A stretch of 32,249 bases of DNA from Flavobacteriaceae bacterium. Its GTDB lineage: Bacteria; Bacteroidota; Bacteroidia; Flavobacteriales; Flavobacteriaceae. A program made the translations under genes and the position numbers. Numbering within the stretch: position 1 is the stretch's first letter; each line of letters opens with the position of its first letter. The stretch covers positions 1 through 32,249 of the forward strand of contig JADHML010000012.1 in the NCBI GenBank assembly GCA_016780065.1, written 5' to 3'. Under the pieces are notes generated by a model, which did no database searches, had not been told where the DNA came from, and saw only the letters and a program-made list of their open reading frames with translations. Shown here one piece after another: positions 3 to 29,451 of the stretch.

Positions 3-1802
3 TGTAACCTTGCGGAAAGTTTTGAGACCAACCCTTCGATAGATGTCAATTTTAACGATGCCTTGACGGGTGTCAAGCAAGTGCAAATGATGGGTCTCGC
101 CAGTCCTTATTTGATGATATCTGAGGAAAACATTCCTATAGTACGTGGGGCTTCTCAGGTCTATGGGTTGAGTTTTACGCCAGGTACTTGGGTGGAGAGT
201 ATGCAAATCACCAAAGGCGCTGGCAGTGTGGTCAATGGGTTTGAAAGCATGACCGGACAAATCAATACCGAACTCAAAAAACCATTGACCAGTGAAAAGC
301 TGTTTCTCAATTTGTTTCGGTCTCTGAACGGACGCTCAGAGCTGAACCTTCATACCAAAACTGACCTTAGCCCTAAGTTGTCTACCAATCTTTTTGTACA
401 CCTCAACCAGCGTACTCAGAAAAACGACCGCAACGACGATGATTTTTTAGACACACCACTCTCTGAACAGTGGAATGTGCTCAACCGTTGGCAATACATC
501 AACCCCCAAAAAGGCTTTGTGTCATTTTTGAATTTGAGACTGATGGGCGATCAAAAACAATTGGGTGCTGTGGACTTTGATCCTGATCTGCACAAAAACA
601 CCACCGACTTTTGGGGAAGCGAAATTGTTACAGACCGCTTAGACGCTTCTTTTAAGTTGGGTTATGTAAATCCGATGATTCCTTATGAGAGTATCGGGTT
701 TCAGTTGGCACACAGCCGACACGATCAGGATTCATATTTTGGGTTACGCACCTATGACATTAACCATCAAAGCTGGTACGGGAGTGTATTGTTTAATTCG
801 ATTATTGGAAACACCAAAAACAAATTTAAAACCGGTTTGAATGTGGCATACGATGCCTATGATGAGCAAGTTTTGACAGACGCTTACAGCCGTATTGACC
901 GATCTGTGGGGGGCTATTTTGAATACACCTACGATAGTTTGGAAAAGCTCAACGGTTCTTTGGGTGTGCGCTATGATCATCACAATCAGTTAGGAGGGTT
1001 TTTAACACCACGTATGCACCTGCGGTATAAATTTTCGGACCTTACGACCTTGCGTTTTTCTGTAGGGAGTGGTCGCAAAACCGCCAATGTGTTTAGCGAA
1101 AACCAAAAGTTATTTGCTTCTTCTAGAACGATAGAGCTGCCCAATGTTTCAGACAGTCGCTTTGGGTTGCTCCCTGAGCGTTCTTGGAATTATGGTTTTA
1201 GTATTGTCAAAGGTTTTGATTTGTGGCAAAGACCTTCGAGTTTGACATTGGATCTGTTCCGTACGGAATTTGTCAATCAAGTGGTGGTCGATTGGGAAAC
1301 CCCCAATGCCATTCGTTTTTACAATTTGGAGGGCGATAGTTTTGCCAACAGCCTTCAGCTTGGTTTTGACAGTGAACTCGCAAGTGACCTGAATCTGCGT
1401 TTGGCATACAAGTATTATGACGTACAGTTGGATTATGAGTCGGGTAGAAAGCAAAAACCCTTACAGCCCGAACATCGGTTTTTTGCCAATTTGGGCTATG
1501 TGAGCAGCAAATGGCGTTTAGACGGCACTTACCAGTATACAGGGGCCATGCGGGTTCCAGCCACTGGAGACCATCCCGACGGACAACAAACCCAACCCTT
1601 TGGGTTGATCAATACGCAAATCACTTATATTCCCACACCTAGGCTTGAATGGTATGTAGGTGCTGAAAATGCAGCTGATTACCGTCAAATAAACCCCATA
1701 GTTTCAGTCAATGATCCTTTTGGGGCATCGTTTGACACCACCCAAGTATATGCCCCTGTGGAAGGAAGTATGATGTATTTGGGTATGCGATATAATTTTT
1801 AA
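3..1802 (+). CDS. TonB-dependent receptor, 5' end cut by window edge
   Basis: This is an outer-membrane active-transport receptor driven by TonB/ExbBD. The frame is open from base 3 and gives about 599 residues. A TTG at 63 lies inside the plug domain and is not the real start. The first ~100 residues are plug sequence, with VRGASQVYGLSF and a conserved GAGSVVNGFESMTGQIN stretch. The rest is a barrel of alternating aromatic/polar strands, ending in YLGMRYNF with the terminal Phe expected for Bam-dependent insertion. Signal peptide, any carboxypeptidase-regulatory domain and the TonB box lie upstream of the window. The next gene starts 10 nt downstream and encodes a secreted heavy-metal-associated protein, so the substrate is probably a metal or metal complex (inference). 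Family certain, substrate unknown. Confidence 0.93.
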   Translation, partial: CNLAESFETNPSIDVNFNDALTGVKQVQMMGLASPYLMISEENIPIVRGASQVYGLSFTPGTWVESMQITKGAGSVVNGFESMTGQINTELKKPLTSEKLFLNLFRSLNGRSELNLHTKTDLSPKLSTNLFVHLNQRTQKNDRNDDDFLDTPLSEQWNVLNRWQYINPQKGFVSFLNLRLMGDQKQLGAVDFDPDLHKNTTDFWGSEIVTDRLDASFKLGYVNPMIPYESIGFQLAHSRHDQDSYFGLRTYDINHQSWYGSVLFNSIIGNTKNKFKTGLNVAYDAYDEQVLTDAYSRIDRSVGGYFEYTYDSLEKLNGSLGVRYDHHNQLGGFLTPRMHLRYKFSDLTTLRFSVGSGRKTANVFSENQKLFASSRTIELPNVSDSRFGLLPERSWNYGFSIVKGFDLWQRPSSLTLDLFRTEFVNQVVVDWETPNAIRFYNLEGDSFANSLQLGFDSELASDLNLRLAYKYYDVQLDYESGRKQKPLQPEHRFFANLGYVSSKWRLDGTYQYTGAMRVPATGDHPDGQQTQPFGLINTQITYIPTPRLEWYVGAENAADYRQINPIVSVNDPFGASFDTTQVYAPVEGSMMYLGMRYNF

Positions 1803-1812
1803 ATTTATTTTT

Positions 1813-2187
1813 ATGAAAACCCTATTTTTTTCTTTGTTTATAATGCTTCCCTTTTTGGGAATGGCTCAAGACCTGCCTTCTAAAAGTCAGCAAGATGTTT
1901 TTGAAGTTTTTGGCAATTGCAACATGTGTAAGTCACGTATCGAAAAAGCAGCCCTCGATGTAAGTGGTGTTAAGTATGCAAGTTGGGACATCCCCTCAGG
2001 GAATTTAAAATTGATCTACAACGCCCGAAAGATCCATATTGACTCTGTGCAGGCTGCAGTGGCTGTTTCAGGTCACGACACCCGTGATTTTAAGGCAGAC
2101 AGTTTGGTGTATAACGAGTTGCCTTTTTGTTGTCAGTATGTGCGGAAAGGGGAGAATGCCAAAGAAGGACAGATGACCAAGCATTAA
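1813..2187 (+). CDS. secreted heavy-metal-associated (HMA-like) domain protein
   Basis: The protein has 124 residues. A signal peptide (about residues 1-18, MKTLFFSLF...GMAQ) indicates export to the periplasm. The mature part resembles an HMA/CopZ fold: the metal-binding loop GNCNMCKSRIEKAA carries Cys36 and Cys39, followed by the usual beta-alpha-beta pattern. A second Cys pair (Cys106-Cys107) sits near the C-terminus and could add ligands. HMA domains usually bind soft metals such as Cu(I). The gene is 10 nt behind the TonB receptor gene and surely co-transcribed. A periplasmic metal carrier or scavenger working with that receptor is the simplest reading (inference). It ends 1 nt from the convergent lipoprotein gene. 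Confidence 0.88.
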   Translation: MKTLFFSLFIMLPFLGMAQDLPSKSQQDVFEVFGNCNMCKSRIEKAALDVSGVKYASWDIPSGNLKLIYNARKIHIDSVQAAVAVSGHDTRDFKADSLVYNELPFCCQYVRKGENAKEGQMTKH

Positions 2188-23689: not shown

Positions 23690-26110
23690 TTAATGCTTTA
23701 TTTTGATTTGGAATAAAACATTTCTGCCAACCTCATCTGAATAAAATCGAAGTCTGTTCAAATAATTTCTGTAAGCTTTGTTCATTACATTATCAATTGA
23801 TAGACCAAAGTAAATATTACTTGAAACAAAATTATATGGACCCCAGTTAAAATTTAGATTGAAAAGATTATAACCATCTGGTGGGGTGCTTATATCGACA
23901 ATTTTATCAATTTTTTTTCCGCTTTCGATAACAGATGTTATCGAGTTATTGTTTGGAAATAAATTTTGTTTATTCACGAATTTGTTCCCAATTATTGCAT
24001 TAAACTTTTTGAATTTACCTAAGGAAAATTGCACTTCATTTGTAATCACCAATGGAGGTATATTTACTAGATGTTCTTTGGTATGATAATCTTTTGCCTC
24101 AACCCAACTAATGCTATTTCTAAATCTAATATTGTCCTTAATTTGGTAAACAAAATCAAAATCTACTCCTTTGAAAATTGAGGTAATATGTGAGTACTCA
24201 AACACTGGAAATGCTCCTCTAATTGTTTGTTCAAATCCAGCTGGTTGAGCTAATATGAAATCTTTACTGTATAATAAATATGGATTAATTCTGTAATTTA
24301 ATTTTCCATTCTTTTTTTCAAAATCAACCAAGACTTTGTGAGTTTTTTCTTTTTTCAAAAATGGATCTCCGTACTCAATTGAAGCTAATGAGTGATGAAG
24401 ACCTCCACTAAACATCTCAGCTATATTTGGTGCTCTTTCAGTATAATTATGCTGAATGCCCAACGAATATTTTTTTGCAAATTCTTTGACAAATCCTGCA
24501 TTTGAAGAAAAAGTATTAAAAACTACTTTTTTTCTAATTAGCTTTTGACTTAAAACTTCTTTTATTACATATTTTCCAAGTCGATCTTGGTAGTTTTCAT
24601 TTTCCCATCGTGAATTTCTATAATACTTGTATACGTCATTACTACGATATTCATATCTTAATCCAAAGCCAAAATTAAATCCCTTATTTAGGTTTAATGT
24701 GGAAATAAAATAACCTCCAAGATTTGTGTTTAAATAATCTGGAATTAGCCTTTTTACCCCTGTTCCAGGGGTTGAATAATTATCTTGAACTTCAAAAAAT
24801 ATTCCATTGATAAATTCATTAGAAAAATTTGACCAAGTATAACTTGAATTTATACTGTGAGTAGATAAATTTAAGTCAAGAGATGGGATGTTTTTAAAAT
24901 CTCCAATCCTCAAATCGAATTCTTTTCGATTATTTCTTTGCCAACTGTATTTAAAAGTTAATTCTTTATTATCGCTGATGAAATGTGTATAATCTACACT
25001 TGAAGTAAAGTGTTCATTTGATTGTTTTGGATAATTTATGTTGTAACTAAATTCATTTACAACGCCAGGTTCATCTGCTTCAATTGCTCTGAGTAAGTCT
25101 CCAATGTTACCAATATGAGAGCTTTTTAAAATTCCAGTTTCAGTATTAAAATAGCTGAAAAATATTTTTAAATCATTGTTAATATTGTTTTTACCAAACG
25201 TAAAAGACAAGTTATTTTCATTCATTCCTGTATTTGAAAGAATGTATCTTGGAGCACTTAAATCACCACTTTTTTTGAATGTTCCCTGACTCTTAAAGTA
25301 TGTGCCATTTTCATATGTTTTAACCCATGAACTAACAATACCACCCCCAGCACCATTGCTTTTGATATTTAAAATTGTTTTTCCGTAAAGAGAATCGATT
25401 TTTTTTGGCAAAGAGGACTTTAGTATGATTACTCCTCCAGGATTTCTGCCAGAGTATTTCAATACACTTACTCCTTTAACTAATTTGACGTCTTCAAATG
25501 CATTCAAATCTACATTTGGCGCATGGTCTTGTCCCCATTGCTGGTTTTCTAGCATTACACCGTTATAGATTATTCCAACTCTGCTTCCGAACATTCCGTG
25601 AATTACTGGCTTAGCTATGTTACTTCCAGTTGACAAAGTGTTTACGCCACTCACAGTTTCTAATAATACTGCTAACCCACTATTGCTATAGCGATCTTTT
25701 ACTGCTCCTGAAATCGAATATGATTTAGCACTAGTTGAAAGATTATCAACTTTTTCATCAATCAAAACCACTTCATCTAAAGATCTTATTTCGTGATCTA
25801 AGTAAAAATTCTTTTTTCCAGACTCCTTAAGATTAATTTCAGCATAAAAATCAGGACAATTAATATGTGAAACTTTAATTTCTATAATTTCACTACAAAG
25901 ATTTTTAAAATTAAAATATCCATTTTCTGATGAAATGATAATGTAATTTGTACCTACGACTTTTACGACAGCTGCTTCTAGCGGAAGGTTCGAGTCGGAA
26001 TCAATGATGTAACCTTCAAAATTTAATTTACAATCTTGGGCAAATACAAATCCTGCAGCAATAAAAAAAATTATTGCTGTAGGAAATAAGATTGATTTGA
26101 TTGAAAAAAT
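23690..26110 (-). CDS. TonB-dependent receptor, ZnuD-like; apparent ATT start
   Basis: Outer-membrane receptor of about 806 residues. The frame is open from a stop at 26134-26132 with no ATG, GTG or TTG until a GTG at 25771, but sequence before that GTG is clearly protein. It has a signal peptide (FSIKSILFPTAIIFF...FVFAQ), then a carboxypeptidase-regulatory-like domain (LNFEGYIIDSDSNLPLEAAVV...FNFKNLC...KVSHINC). ATT at 26110 gives the best signal peptide. The plug contains KPVIHGMFGSRVGIIYNGV and WGQDHAPNVD, reminiscent of the ZnuD zinc-receptor group. The barrel ends GRNVLFQIKIKH without a terminal Phe. Neighbours are a His-rich lipoprotein and a His/Cys-rich peptide, supporting zinc or a similar metal (inference). 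The region is very AT-rich. Confidence 0.88.
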   Translation of the reverse strand: MFSIKSILFPTAIIFFIAAGFVFAQDCKLNFEGYIIDSDSNLPLEAAVVKVVGTNYIIISSENGYFNFKNLCSEIIEIKVSHINCPDFYAEINLKESGKKNFYLDHEIRSLDEVVLIDEKVDNLSTSAKSYSISGAVKDRYSNSGLAVLLETVSGVNTLSTGSNIAKPVIHGMFGSRVGIIYNGVMLENQQWGQDHAPNVDLNAFEDVKLVKGVSVLKYSGRNPGGVIILKSSLPKKIDSLYGKTILNIKSNGAGGGIVSSWVKTYENGTYFKSQGTFKKSGDLSAPRYILSNTGMNENNLSFTFGKNNINNDLKIFFSYFNTETGILKSSHIGNIGDLLRAIEADEPGVVNEFSYNINYPKQSNEHFTSSVDYTHFISDNKELTFKYSWQRNNRKEFDLRIGDFKNIPSLDLNLSTHSINSSYTWSNFSNEFINGIFFEVQDNYSTPGTGVKRLIPDYLNTNLGGYFISTLNLNKGFNFGFGLRYEYRSNDVYKYYRNSRWENENYQDRLGKYVIKEVLSQKLIRKKVVFNTFSSNAGFVKEFAKKYSLGIQHNYTERAPNIAEMFSGGLHHSLASIEYGDPFLKKEKTHKVLVDFEKKNGKLNYRINPYLLYSKDFILAQPAGFEQTIRGAFPVFEYSHITSIFKGVDFDFVYQIKDNIRFRNSISWVEAKDYHTKEHLVNIPPLVITNEVQFSLGKFKKFNAIIGNKFVNKQNLFPNNNSITSVIESGKKIDKIVDISTPPDGYNLFNLNFNWGPYNFVSSNIYFGLSIDNVMNKAYRNYLNRLRFYSDEVGRNVLFQIKIKH

Positions 26111-26124
26111 AATAATGAGAATTA

Positions 26125-26730
26125 TTAAGACTCAACGTGGGCCTCAAATTCAATTTCAACATCTGTTGCTCCACCAAAATCATCACGTGTGGTTCCTGTT
26201 TTTGAAGTTGGTTGATGTATTAGGTATGCTTCTACATCAACTACTGTTGCAGCAGTTGTTGTCCACTTGGTCACCAAATTGAGAGCATTCCCTTCGGAAT
26301 CTCTAGTATCACCAGAAGTTGTAACAAATGAAATTCCATCGCCAATAAGTTCATAGAATACAATATGCTCGTCTGCTTCTTCGATGACTTCTTCAGTCAT
26401 ATCAATAACATTATTTGGATCCGAATCATTTAAAAATGTAATTTCAAACTTGTATTCAGAGTCACTCTCAAGTTCTATTTTAGTATGATCCCCATGATCA
26501 TCACCCTCTTGATTTTGAACAAGAACGGCATGATCATGATCGTGATCGTGTTCTTCAACTTCAAAATTGTAAGTTTCCGAGCTATCGTCTGAAAGATTAG
26601 TTACGACAATTACAGCTTTGGTGAAAACTTCAATTTCATTTTCTACGTCTGGAGTATCATCCTTGTCACAGGAAATGAATAGTAAAACTGATGAAAGCAA
26701 TGTTGCTTTCAGATAAATATTTTTAAACAT
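26125..26730 (-). CDS. His-rich lipoprotein paired with TonB receptor
   Basis: The product has 201 residues. The signal peptide MFKNIYLKATLLSSVLLFISC has lipobox FISC; Cys21 is the lipidation site, followed by acidic DKDDTPDVENE. The mature part resembles a flavobacterial family often named 'type 1 periplasmic binding fold superfamily protein' and usually found beside a TonB receptor: VIVVTNLSDDSSETYNF, EITFLNDSDP, MTEEVIEEADEHIVFYEL, and a C-terminal DDFGGATDVEIEFEAHV. It carries two His clusters, HDHDHDH (61-67) and DDHGDH (77-82), likely metal ligands. The TonB receptor frame begins about 14 nt after its stop. It is probably a surface or periplasm-facing metal-binding partner of the receptor (inference). 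Confidence 0.85.
   Translation of the reverse strand: MFKNIYLKATLLSSVLLFISCDKDDTPDVENEIEVFTKAVIVVTNLSDDSSETYNFEVEEHDHDHDHAVLVQNQEGDDHGDHTKIELESDSEYKFEITFLNDSDPNNVIDMTEEVIEEADEHIVFYELIGDGISFVTTSGDTRDSEGNALNLVTKWTTTAATVVDVEAYLIHQPTSKTGTTRDDFGGATDVEIEFEAHVES
26529..26550. repeat. short hexanucleotide tandem repeat coding for His-Asp
   Basis: On the plus strand, CATGAT twice, then CGTGAT, then CGTG (3.7 units). Read on the minus strand it encodes HDHDHDH in the lipoprotein. Unit length of 6 keeps the frame, so gain or loss of units would vary the number of His ligands without breaking the gene. Confidence 0.7.
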
Positions 26731-26766
26731 TTTAAATTTTTTTAGGTATTTATGTAGGTTTTGTGG

Positions 26767-26781
26767 TCTATAATATATAGA
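26767..26781. promoter_or_regulatory. palindromic site TCTATA-ATA-TATAGA upstream of the lipoprotein gene
   Basis: A 6-bp inverted repeat with a 3-nt centre lies in the 74-nt gap 37 nt upstream of the lipoprotein ATG. The AT-rich TATAATATATA core is loosely like Zur/Fur boxes (known Zur sites have a TTATAATATAA-type core), but the match is weak and no clear -7 element accompanies it. Confidence 0.3.
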
Positions 26782-26804
26782 GTAAAAAGATGTGGTAAAA
26801 AATA

Positions 26805-27098
26805 TTAATTTGAAGGAGGTCCTCTTTTGAAGAAATTAAGCAGAATTTTTTTTTGGTATAAAACTTCAATTTCAAATATTTCTGAATTGAATAAAAAAAC
26901 TAAGGATTTATAATTGTTTGTAGATGAATTATAAATTTTATTTGATAGAAAATTATCTAAACAACAAACTTCATCATAATCGTGAAAATGTACAGTTGTA
27001 TCTTCACATTGTTGATGCCCATGATGAGATAGCTCATGCGCATAAACCGCCAATGTTGGCAGAAAAATACTAAGTGTGAAAATAAGCCGTAGAAACAT
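26805..27098 (-). CDS. small secreted His/Cys-rich protein
   Basis: The ATG at 27098 gives 97 residues; a TTG one codon upstream is possible but unnecessary. The signal peptide (about 1-20, MFLRLIFTLSIFLPTLAVYA) leaves a mature N-terminus HELSHHGHQQ with ligands His21, His25, His26, His28, Cys31, His37, His39, Cys45 and Cys46. The C-terminus ends KKILLNFFKRGPPSN; I recall RGPP-type ends in small exported Bacteroidota and proteobacterial peptides found near metal transporters. The likely role is metal (zinc) binding in the periplasm or at the surface (inference). The gene is 7 nt from the DUF6787 gene upstream and 74 nt before the lipoprotein. Codons are AT-rich, unlike the ser genes. Confidence 0.78.
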   Translation of the reverse strand: MFLRLIFTLSIFLPTLAVYAHELSHHGHQQCEDTTVHFHDYDEVCCLDNFLSNKIYNSSTNNYKSLVFLFNSEIFEIEVLYQKKILLNFFKRGPPSN

Positions 27099-27105
27099 CA
27101 AGCGT

Positions 27106-27420
27106 TTATTTGTTTTTGTTCAATTTATGGATGGGCACACCCATACGAGACAACATTTTCTTTTCAAAGTTCCAAAAAAATTGGAACTCTCCAAATAAAA
27201 AGCCACAAAATACCAAAATCACCTGATATATTGGGAATATCAATAAGATACGGATTGGCCAGTATAGCCATAAATTGGTATTTTCTGGAGTAAGCCCCAG
27301 CCAATGGGTAAGCGGTTCGGCAAGCAGAGCCGATACACTGCCCGTAATGCCAAAGACAATGAAAATGATCAACAAGTGGAAGTTGGAGCGAATCCCCCAA
27401 CGTTGTTTTAAGTTTTTCAT
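27106..27420 (-). CDS. DUF6787-type small membrane protein
   Basis: The product has 104 residues. The N-terminus KNLKQRWGIRSNFHLLIIFIVFGITGSVSALLAEP contains the first TM helix (about 16-34). A second TM helix spans IRILLIFPIYQVILVFCGFLFG (about 57-78). The C-terminus is basic, with FEKKMLSRMG. I associate this pattern with the Bacteroidota family DUF6787, often encoded next to serA. Some entries carry unrelated enzyme names that the sequence does not support. It starts 4 nt after serA. Function unknown; a real gene by composition and context. Confidence 0.8.
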   Translation of the reverse strand: MKNLKQRWGIRSNFHLLIIFIVFGITGSVSALLAEPLTHWLGLTPENTNLWLYWPIRILLIFPIYQVILVFCGFLFGEFQFFWNFEKKMLSRMGVPIHKLNKNK

Positions 27421-27424
27421 CAGT

Positions 27425-28375
27425 TTACCCTAAAATCGCATGGATTTGATGTGCGAGTTCCGTGCCGATACGGTCTTGTGCTTCTTGTGTCGCTGCACCA
27501 ATATGAGGGGTTAGCGATACGCTCGGGTGCATCAATACCTTCATGGCAGGTTTTGGCTCGTTGACAAAGGTGTCCAAGCCAGCAAAGCTCAACTGCCCAT
27601 TTTCGAGAGCGTCAAGGAGTGCCTCTTCATCAATTACACCACCTCGGGCTGCATTGATCAAACCAGCTCCTTTCTTCATCATCCCCAATTCTTTCTTTCC
27701 AATAACGGGTTTGTCTTGTGCAGGTACGTGTAAGCTGATAAAATCCGCTTCTTTTAATACAGACTCGAAACTGTTCATCTCAATCGCGACATCAACTGCA
27801 GCTCCGTTACCCAACACCACCTTAACTTCTGCCTTGTCCATAAAAGGGTCATGCGCAATAACATGCATACCTACGCCAAGTGCAATTTTAGCAGTTTCTT
27901 GCCCTATACGTCCAAATCCAATCACGCCCATGGTTTTACCACGTAATTCAGACCCGCCAGCATAATTTTTCTTTAAGACTTTAAAATTGCTATCGCCTTC
28001 TAGTGGCATTTGTCGGTTTGCATCATACAGAAAGCGAACACCACCATATAAATGCGCAAAGACCAACTCGGCTACCGAAGCAGATGAAGCTGCAGGGGTG
28101 TTTATGACATGCAAGCCCTTTTCACGCGCATAGTCCACGTCGATATTGTCCATACCCACACCACCACGTCCGATAATTTTTAAGCTCGGACAAGCATCGA
28201 TCAGGTCTTTTCGAACCGTTGTGGCACTGCGTACCAACAAAACATCGATTTCATTAGTGTTGATGTGATTTTCCAATTGCTCTTGAGCAACATTGGTTGT
28301 GCTTACTTCATATCCATACGACTCGAGTGCCTTCACTCCAGTTGCGGATATACCATCATTTGCTAATACTTTCAT
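27425..28375 (-). CDS. serA: D-3-phosphoglycerate dehydrogenase (2-hydroxyacid dehydrogenase family)
   Basis: This NAD-dependent enzyme carries out the first committed step of serine synthesis, oxidising 3-phosphoglycerate to 3-phosphohydroxypyruvate. It has 316 residues, the short form without the C-terminal ACT regulatory domain. Visible pieces: the substrate loop [26 protein letters not shown], the NAD-binding GFGRIGQE (about 157-164), the catalytic Arg in [13 protein letters not shown], Glu in FVNEP, and His in [13 protein letters not shown]. Lack of ACT domains implies no allosteric serine inhibition of the classical type. It lies directly behind serC (11 nt), which makes the assignment as SerA rather than another hydroxyacid dehydrogenase secure. 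Confidence 0.94.
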
Positions 28376-28386
28376 GTTTTTCTTTT

Positions 28387-29451
28387 TTAAGCAGTTCTTT
28401 CTAATTCTTTCATCACATCTACCAATACCTGCACCGATTCAATGGGGAGTGCATTGTACATAGATGCACGATAGCCTCCTACAGATCGGTGTCCATTGAT
28501 ACCGTTCAGACCGGCATCCGCACTCATTGCGCCAAATCGGTCTTTTAGGGATTCCTGTTCGAGTGTAAAGGTGGCGTTCATGGTACTTCTATCTTCGACA
28601 GCTGCAAAGCCTTTAAATAAGGGGTTGCGGTCGATTTCGCCGTACATGAGGGCCGCTTTGGCTTCGTTTCTTTTTTCAATTTCTTTAATACCTCCTAAGT
28701 CTTTCAACCATTGAAGGTTCAGCATAGAGGTATATACCGCAAATACGGGTGGGGTATTAAACATACTGTCTTTGGAAGCATGGTTGGCATAATCCAACAT
28801 AGATGGTATTTTGTGACTTACCTTTCCAAGAACAGATTCTTTTACAACAACAAGAGTCGTACCTGCAGGACCCATATTTTTTTGCGCACCCGCATAAACA
28901 ATCCCAAACTTAGAAAAATCGAGTTGACGTGAAAATATATCAGAGCTCGAGTCACTTACCAGTACAGAGTCTGTCTGAGGAAGATTTTTGATCTGTGTGC
29001 CAAAAATGGTGTTGTTAGTGGTGATATGCAGGTAATCGGCATCAGAAGGCACATCAAAGCCTTTGGGGATGTAATTAAAGTTTGCATCGGCTGAAGAAGC
29101 AACTTCAACGACCTCTCCAACAAGTTTAGCTTCCTTTATGGCTTTTGTTGACCAAGTTCCTGTGTTCAAGTATGCAGCTTTCTTATCTAAAAGGTTGTAG
29201 GCTGTTGCAAGAAATTGGGTGCTGGCACCGCCTTGTAGAAACAAGGCTTTATAGCCTTTGCCTTCCAAGTCTAACAACTCTAGAGTTAGCTGACAAGCAC
29301 GCTCCATGATTTCAATAAAAGCAGGGCTTCGGTGTGATATTTCGATGAGTGAAAGACCAGAATTGTCTAACTCTTGCACGGCAGCCGCCGCTTGTTGCAT
29401 AACAGAATCTGGAAGGATGCAAGGGCCGGCGCTAAAGTTGTGTTTTTTCAT
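28387..29451 (-). CDS. serC: phosphoserine aminotransferase
   Basis: This PLP enzyme converts 3-phosphohydroxypyruvate and glutamate to phosphoserine, and also serves B6 synthesis. The ATG at 29451 gives MKKHNFSAGPCILPD, the canonical N-terminus; nine extra residues from an earlier start are discarded, leaving 354 residues. Visible: LEISHRSP-type ISHRSPAF, LQGGASTQFLATAYNL, SDSSSDIFSRQLD, and the Schiff-base Lys in YAGAQKNMGPAG (about residue 188). HRSVGGYRASMYNA closes the phosphate-binding site. It forms an operon with serA. Confidence 0.97.
   Translation of the reverse strand: MKKHNFSAGPCILPDSVMQQAAAAVQELDNSGLSLIEISHRSPAFIEIMERACQLTLELLDLEGKGYKALFLQGGASTQFLATAYNLLDKKAAYLNTGTWSTKAIKEAKLVGEVVEVASSADANFNYIPKGFDVPSDADYLHITTNNTIFGTQIKNLPQTDSVLVSDSSSDIFSRQLDFSKFGIVYAGAQKNMGPAGTTLVVVKESVLGKVSHKIPSMLDYANHASKDSMFNTPPVFAVYTSMLNLQWLKDLGGIKEIEKRNEAKAALMYGEIDRNPLFKGFAAVEDRSTMNATFTLEQESLKDRFGAMSADAGLNGINGHRSVGGYRASMYNALPIESVQVLVDVMKELERTA

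Follow-up and report, generated by a model that had tools for sequence, protein, structure and literature searches.

A candidate metal-responsive arrest peptide heads a ZnuD-like receptor cassette in a Flavobacteriaceae bacterium, with allele exchange through the leader gene

The contig JADHML010000012.1 (assembly GCA_016780065.1) of a Flavobacteriaceae bacterium was analysed as one whole stretch of 32,249 nucleotides (nt), here called the window; the assembly has a completeness rating of 58%. Three consecutive open reading frames (ORFs) on its minus strand encode a short leader peptide with His and Cys residues, a lipoprotein with a His-rich loop, and a TonB-dependent receptor related to the zinc receptor ZnuD (Table 1). 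This cassette is probably an operon for metal uptake whose first gene controls the others, with the leader acting as a metal-sensing nascent chain that stalls the ribosome. The cassette is located downstream of a serC-serA-DUF6787 run, and a convergent folE lies beyond the receptor (the ser, folE, and DUF6787 names are by eye and from an earlier reading of this DNA, here called the original prediction). The original prediction had described three consecutive genes for exported proteins rich in metal ligands with a ZnuD-like TonB receptor, joined to the end of the serC-serA-DUF6787 run. Both the ORFs and the neighbourhood are confirmed.

The leader is 97 amino acids (aa) long, below the limit of 150 aa, and two Pro residues, fourth and third from its end, lie within the last 15 residues. 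Its N-terminus is hydrophobic, as read from the sequence and not by a signal-peptide program, and is a putative export signal. DUF2946 and other named families were considered for the leader, and Pfam and NCBIfam searches gave nothing convincing. Loci of receptor relatives were gathered from genomes, and leader rows were picked by an R[AG]PP-like pattern at the C-terminus. The motif scan also allowed H, Q, K, and S, yet every listed match has R with A or G. L030 (a fragment) and L004–L012 (duplicates of named loci) were excluded from the per-locus receptor and leader counts. At 53 of 55 loci, an ORF ending in R[AG]PP is present upstream of the receptor, or of the lipoprotein preceding the receptor; two of these, L035 and L067, have the tail intact only. 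No such ORF is present upstream of the receptor in L019 and L025. In L019 (genome G030), the receptor lacks an adjoining leader, although the leader profile does find a match at another place in that genome. As a check on chance, the two strands of 38 named loci hold 1138 possible ORFs of 60–145 aa, of which 34 carry an R[AG]PP end, and all 34 listed by the motif scan for those loci end at leader ends.

Fifty-one leaders including that of the window were aligned, without L035, L056, and L067 (contig end cut, masked bases, frameshift). The mean column identity is 34%. Four columns are invariant, C45, R92, P94, and P95, and only C45 counts as unselected because the R[AG]PP end was the criterion for picking the rows. 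H21, H28, C31, H37, and H39 are conserved at 90% or more. The invariant Cys and Arg are separated by 45, 46, 47, or 48 residues in 5, 15, 22, and 9 leaders, respectively, and 2–6 residues follow the two Pro residues in all 51. HxH is seen in 47 of them.

The pair of leader and receptor is widespread. The receptor profile at 1e-80 matches 158 of 295 genomes of the class, own genome included; the class is apparently Bacteroidia in GTDB terms. Upstream stretches were taken for the best 60 of the 158 receptor-matching genomes, own genome not counted. An R[AG]PP ORF is present in 39 of these 60 stretches, and a K[AG]PP ORF in 3 more. The class-level leaders were chosen by [RK][AG]PP, and the motif is thus unselected only in the counts per receptor locus, here and among the nearer relatives; the Cys register played no part in the choice. 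In all 43 class-level leader ORFs of at least 60 aa, Cys is found 46–49 residues before the R or K. When the 75 upstream residues were shuffled (2000 trials), on average 6.9 and at most 15 of the 43 had Cys in register. Two genomes contribute two leaders each to the 43, one cut ORF was dropped, and near-identical pairs among them include L083/L124, L087/L125, and L127/L129. HxH is seen in 18 of the 43.

At the family level, the leader profile matches 121 of 149 genomes (one per genus, own included). Seventy-three profile-found leader ORFs were inspected at 69 loci, which comprise the 29 best-scoring and 40 favouring second copies and weak matches; the own locus (L152) is excluded, and some loci share genomes with the 51-leader alignment. 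The R[AG]PP motif lies within 14 residues of the end in 69 of the 73, and the Cys register is likewise preserved in 69. The motif is replaced in L185 (RDPP) and L194 (RSPP), and lies more than 14 residues from the end in L182 and L196. The register is absent in L185, L194, L199, and L212. Within 600 nt downstream, the receptor is found for 56 leaders and the lipoprotein for 7; either is farther off for 3, and neither is found for 7. By eye, exceptional leaders precede NosFY-like ATP-binding cassette (ABC) genes (L193–L195), a PepSY_TM gene (L183), or another His-rich lipoprotein gene (L188). The leaders of L193 and L195 have CxxC, while that of L194 ends in RSPP. This suggests that the leaders of L183 and L193–L195 are copper-type paralogues in the same family. 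In L087, L125, L141 (3240–3551), and L197, either two R[AG]PP leaders stand in tandem ahead of a single receptor, or an additional leader lies between the receptor and the lipoprotein.

R[AG]PP is known as a ribosome-stalling motif of SecM-like arrest peptides, according to the accessible parts of two reports (PMC10951233, PMC12992588). In the accessible part of the latter, translation arrest is described for seven Streptomyces lividans peptides with RAPP/RGPP and, in vitro, for CruR; TonB receptors are among the overrepresented downstream genes, and RAPP/RGPP proteins upstream of TonB genes occur across Gram-negative phyla. These upstream proteins share with the window the motif and the class of the downstream gene, and their signal sequence would correspond to the hydrophobic N-terminus of the window leader; for this group, that part of the report mentions neither a member from Bacteroidota nor a metal ligand set or a Cys-Arg register (PMC12992588).

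A close parallel in layout is CruR, the DUF2946 leader of cruR-bfrG/crtA-bp2921 in Bordetella pertussis (PMC9426467). Like the window leader, it is short and stands first before a TonB-dependent receptor, and its export signal would correspond to the putative one of the window leader. R[AG]PP is placed a few residues before the stop in both, 45–48 residues separate Cys and Arg, and C exceeds G in the leader and the spacer. In CruR the residues are C90xxC93 and R139, so that 48 residues separate C90 from the Arg and 45 separate C93 from it (distances of 49 and 46), and the addition of five residues strongly reduced the copper response (PMC9426467). Unlike CruR, the window leader has no DUF2946 match, and has C with HxHxxC...HxH in place of CxxC. 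The spacer is 162 nt in CruR and 74 nt in the window, the companion is PepSY_TM in the former and the lipoprotein in the latter, and the window receptor is ZnuD-like.

The second comparison is with CutF and 5,334 CutF-like proteins (PMC9973294). Based on the accessible part of that report, they resemble the window leader in size (less than 150 aa), Pro-Pro in the last 15 residues, a Cys/His motif, and a same-strand gene close downstream. CutF itself differs in having CxxxC, in stalling with copper rather than without it, and in opening a stem-loop that hides the Shine-Dalgarno sequence; the metals named for CutF-like proteins in that part are copper, nickel, and cobalt, not zinc. Many CutF-like proteins come from Bacteroidota, and TonB-like genes are frequent neighbours, as far as the same part of the report goes (PMC9973294). 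The putative device of the window belongs to this published kind of CutF-like or CruR-like metal-sensing leaders. What is new, as far as the compared papers go, is that the register is fixed class-wide, that the window family has a C/HxH ligand set, that the leader is linked to a ZnuD-type receptor and a lipoprotein, and that recombination runs through the leader gene. Searches of the open-access literature returned nothing joining RGPP, zinc, and translation arrest, nor zinc nascent-chain arrest with TonB-dependent and Bacteroid, which is not proof of absence. A paper on zinc in Riemerella offers, in its accessible part, no evidence on a homologue.

The following mechanism can be proposed. 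The leader would be translated, and the ribosome would stall at R-G-P-P, two residues before the stop. At the stall, the His/Cys stretch about 46–49 residues back would be just leaving the tunnel and could meet metal. When metal is low, the stall would persist and protect the downstream message, either by preventing Rho-type termination or by making the next start accessible, and the lipoprotein and the receptor would be made. When metal is sufficient, the nascent chain would bind it, the stall would be relieved, and expression would stop, as reported for CruR. The receptor would then import the metal, perhaps with the help of the lipoprotein.

The base composition around the leader end speaks for this type of control. 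On the coding strand, C exceeds G across the leader 3' end and the spacer at 50 of the 51 loci (by 6.1 points on average), while the next 600 nt show this in 2 of 51; at serA ends, taken for comparison, C minus G ranges from -3.5 to +4.0. The bias can be likened to the Rho-dependent region of CruR. The spacer hairpin has a z score of -1.0 in the window and a mean z of -1.47 over 35 loci, 18 of which are below -1, and is variable in sequence. At 26 of the 51 loci, the leader overlaps the preceding ORF or starts no more than 20 nt after it. Here an own promoter or operator seems unlikely, and control after initiation is more likely. The remaining 25 loci do not show such proximity and leave room for an own promoter or operator.

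The receptor bears on which metal is sensed and imported. By profile, its best solved relative is ZnuD (79.9 bits), followed by the TonB-linked receptor 9gbc (75.9) and copper OprC (65.7). The zinc ligands of ZnuD of Neisseria meningitidis are D99, H100, E340, and H499 (PMC4557270). The window receptor is likewise a TonB receptor, and its D200-H201 and H577 align with D99-H100 and H499, three of the four ligands. It differs from ZnuD in an extra N-terminal CarbopepD_reg_2 domain, and the counterpart of E340 is not among the aligned residues, since the sequence alignments do not reach that ligand. [DE]H at the plug site is conserved in all 56 rows of the nearer-relative alignment and all 30 class-level rows, with Glu for Asp in many relatives. 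The first His of the barrel site is conserved in all 54 nearer-relative rows that reach it and in all 30 class-level rows. The receptor is not filed as ZnuD because it scores 64 bits against the ZnuD model of NCBIfam (NF038289), whose cut-off is 950; the scores are 62.3 for a heme-type model and 51.7 for the copper OprC-type TIGR01778 (cut-off 472). The predicted fold has a mean predicted local distance difference test (pLDDT) score of 78.7, and its Z scores are 36.6 to PirA and 36.3 to ZnuD (4rdt), which are tied, then 35.2 to Cir, 35.2 to BtuB, and 34.2 to OprC.

Zinc is favoured as the metal. It is conceivable, although we hold this with some doubt, that a zinc-sensing arrest peptide of this kind operates class-wide: nascent His/Cys leaders would detect zinc where the tunnel opens, control the production of a ZnuD-like receptor and lipoprotein, and replace or add to Zur, while recombination through the sensor gene would redistribute receptor alleles between species. 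The original prediction of a metal-uptake cassette with a ZnuD-like receptor stands as a likely metal-acquisition cassette, with zinc preferred and copper as its rival. The same device might sense and import copper, as a counterpart of CruR-CrtA supplying respiratory oxidases, a tentative reading. Copper is the metal sensed by CruR and CutF, and the genes behind most Cys-type CutF-like leaders are copper genes. Of the 43 class-level leaders, 29 have CxxC at the CruR register, related leaders precede the NosFY-like ABC genes and the PepSY_TM gene mentioned above, and OprC is the second solved molecule in a single-sequence search with the receptor. On the other hand, the Asp/Glu-His and His of ZnuD are kept in every receptor row examined, and the plug Cys of OprC, which we take to be a copper-site ligand, has no counterpart in the receptor alignment. 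In place of CxxC, the window leader carries C, HxH, and CC. In its accessible part, a 2025 survey lists copper-related downstream genes in various lineages, Bacteroidota not among them. By eye, leader type (C or CxxC) does not strictly correspond to D-H or E-H in the receptor. COX1 is present in all 60 receptor genomes and in 280 of the 295 class genomes; being near-universal in the class, its co-occurrence cannot decide between copper and zinc.

The leader could also be explained without stalling or without metal. The original prediction had taken the His/Cys peptide for a soluble ligand protein. As a mature secreted metal-binding protein feeding the receptor, with RGPP as a docking tail, it would account for its exported look, its His/Cys richness, and its gene beside the receptor. 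Conservation outside the ligands and the motif is poor (34%), yet the Cys-Arg distance varies by no more than 3 residues among all 51 aligned leaders, and all 43 class-level leaders share that register. Such a fixed distance is explained by a tunnel ruler, not by a folded ligand protein. Besides, neither of the related proteins CruR and CutF was detected in cells. The arrest motif with a Cys at a fixed distance is the signature of a nascent-chain sensor, and a secreted ligand protein is quite improbable. A secretion monitor of the SecM type, without a metal link and standing before the receptor by chance, would also be an exported-looking peptide with C-terminal R[AG]PP, as in sec-linked arrest peptides. 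The receptor or lipoprotein is downstream of 63 of 73 leaders, and the Cys and His ligands are conserved, which makes this explanation very improbable.

Several observations weigh against a metal-sensing, and in particular a zinc-sensing, arrest peptide. The invariance of R[AG]PP within the 51-leader alignment is partly due to selection of the rows. CxxC is seen in only 9 of the 51 aligned leaders. The window leader has no match to DUF2946 (Pfam PF11162), and 2 of the 51 relatives match it with a best E value of 0.022. Of the E. coli and B. subtilis proteins carrying such motifs, most failed to stall efficiently. Eighteen of the 60 class-level stretches have no such leader within about 1.4 kb. 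The excess of C over G may follow from the amino acids of the leader, and the spacer hairpin is weak in the clade of the window. As for zinc, the assignment would depend on three aligned residues of a distant relative, and the fold match to ZnuD is tied with that to PirA. Finally, the L183 leader is of the C/HxH type of the window and, by eye, precedes a PepSY_TM gene, of a class linked to copper in Bordetella.

The lipoprotein looks like a conserved partner of the pair. H122, D144, W156, and H172 are invariant in 36 aligned lipoproteins. The predicted structure has a pLDDT of 83.2, with residues 62–80 under 50. The His-rich loop varies in length and composition, and is missing in L013 and, by eye, in most class-level relatives. 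Being variable and predicted as disordered, it is an elaboration rather than the core. Among 20 extended class-level loci, a text pattern picks out a similar protein in 15, of which 14 have it behind the receptor; four further loci show one by eye. In the nearer relatives of the window, the lipoprotein precedes the receptor, and several genera of the same family (L014–L028) have no lipoprotein between leader and receptor. ZrgA (PF10986) has no match in the window lipoprotein and matches 10 of the 36 members with a best E value of 0.012. For the fold, Foldseek found nothing at 1e-3 or better; with VIA, the top matches were nuclear-pore chains (Z 9.1 and 8.8, aligned over about 100 residues) and the others scored 7.8 or less, with no functional lead.

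The cassette differs from its neighbours in base composition and history. The original prediction had contrasted an AT-rich set with the ser genes from two 60-base counts (13 and 31 G+C). The counts are correct, but they lie near the extremes of the 500-base profile of G+C content (GC). Over whole genes the contrast persists, with GC at third codon positions (GC3) of 0.17–0.23 against 0.39–0.49. GC and GC3 are 0.298 and 0.213 for the receptor, 0.279 and 0.173 for the leader, and 0.360 and 0.228 for the lipoprotein; they are 0.454 and 0.407 for serA, 0.434 and 0.393 for serC, and 0.387 and 0.486 for the DUF6787 gene. Low GC3 is also seen in some other genes of the window, such as msrA (0.264).

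The locus is constant within the genus. The receptor is present in 10 of 12 other genomes of the genus, the two misses being 78% complete, and serC-serA lies upstream in all 8 same-genus loci with enough flank. The receptor and ser gene trees disagree (L062, with a partial receptor, was left out, and the receptor row of L068 is 45% filled). Based on the serA+serC tree, the window groups with nine genomes (100/100), the nearest being L068 (serA 97%). In the receptor tree, it groups with L033 (87%), then L066, L034, and L065, far from L068, L059, L055, and L064. Forcing the ten receptors of the ser clade together costs 244 log units (approximately unbiased (AU) test, p 1e-5), or 29 units without L040 (p 0.003). 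Forcing the ser genes of L040 with those of L037–L039, where its receptor sits, gives an AU p of 1e-10.

The DNA itself shows a step. In 100-base steps, identity to L068 is 89–99% from within serA into the 5' end of the leader gene, then 45–80%, mostly near 60%; across the leader gene it falls from 97% to 58%. The same step is seen against L059, to which identity returns to 88–89% at the receptor end and folE. Against L033, the cassette stays at 74–95%. Judging from these steps, the exchanged piece begins in the leader gene, in or just after the ligand part. Receptor GC3 is 0.18–0.23 in the window, L033, L034, L036–L040, L065, and L066, and 0.39–0.43 in L055, L059, L064, and L068, so AT-richness belongs to this allele type of the receptor. 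The occurrence of AT-rich alleles in several lineages might be taken for local drift under relaxed selection without exchange. The tree conflict with its AU rejection, the abrupt identity step in the leader gene, and the grouping of the L040 receptor inside another ser-gene clade render drift highly unlikely.

An island or a mobile element was also considered: no tRNA is present in the window (mobile-element genes were not searched for), and the place in the genus is constant. This constancy argues against an island and for allele exchange in place. In the genus, the locus is fixed and, as the trees and identity profiles indicate, its alleles are exchanged between related bacteria. Of the transferable module in the original prediction, the movement of alleles between lineages is retained, while an added module is not. 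Constant presence in relatives with the same neighbourhood, which had been named as a result that would speak against transfer, was largely found within the genus; it removes the island and leaves allele exchange standing. Besides, serC (about 28350–29450) has about 69–76% DNA identity to L068, while most of the adjoining serA has 95–99%. The serC-serA border may be a second breakpoint.

If these readings hold, ribosome stalling is a widespread means, beside repressors, of metal control over outer-membrane uptake in a major bacterial group, and the copper sensors CruR and CutF would gain a counterpart for zinc. The fixed register of 46–49 residues across poorly alignable leaders would give a handle on the tunnel position where metal is read. 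Small "secreted metal-binding" proteins beside TonB receptors of Bacteroidota may be regulators that never accumulate.

Table 1. Positions of the cassette features within the window.
Feature	Position	Strand	Basis
Leader ORF, 97 aa, candidate metal-responsive arrest peptide	26805..27098	-	Hydrophobic N-terminus, His/Cys motif, RGPP two residues before stop
Putative metal-binding stretch of leader, residues 21-46, H...HHGH..C.....HFH.....CC	26961..27038	-	Column conservation and Cys register
RGPP arrest motif, leader residues 92-95	26814..26825	-	R[AG]PP end at 53/55 receptor loci
Leader-lipoprotein intergenic region, 74 nt, C over G on coding strand, weak hairpin	26731..26804	-	Base counts, hairpin z
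Lipoprotein, 201 aa, Cys21 lipobox, predicted mainly beta fold, disordered His-rich loop	26125..26730	-	Alignment of 36, predicted structure
His-rich loop of lipoprotein, residues 61-82	26485..26550	-	Sequence
TonB-dependent receptor, N-terminal CarbopepD_reg_2 domain and plug	23690..26125 (start approximate)	-	Profile searches; plug E 1.3e-10
Receptor plug Asp-His aligned with ZnuD zinc ligands D99-H100	25523..25528	-	Alignment
Receptor barrel GLHH, first His aligned with ZnuD zinc ligand H499	24392..24397	-	Alignment
Exchanged segment (approximate), within leader gene through lipoprotein to near receptor 3' end	23750..27000	.	Identity steps against L068, L059, L055 (none against L033); tree conflict
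DUF6787-type gene directly upstream, 7 nt from leader start	27106..27420	-	Similar upstream gene in 27/51 loci

The receptor start in Table 1 is a correction to the ORF start. The frame has no ATG, GTG, or TTG from the upstream stop to 25771, and the open frame with the signal sequence and the CarbopepD_reg_2 domain begins at about 26125. The missing start codon could be due to an unusual initiation codon such as ATT, to coupling with the lipoprotein, or to a mistake in the assembly. Near the lipoprotein stop (26090–26127, minus strand), close relatives carry TTG or ATG codons. Elsewhere in the window, a second TonB receptor at 63–2187 (plus strand) is followed by a small exported-looking protein with CNMC, a motif resembling that of heavy-metal-associated (HMA) domains by eye, and the two could be a heavy-metal pair.

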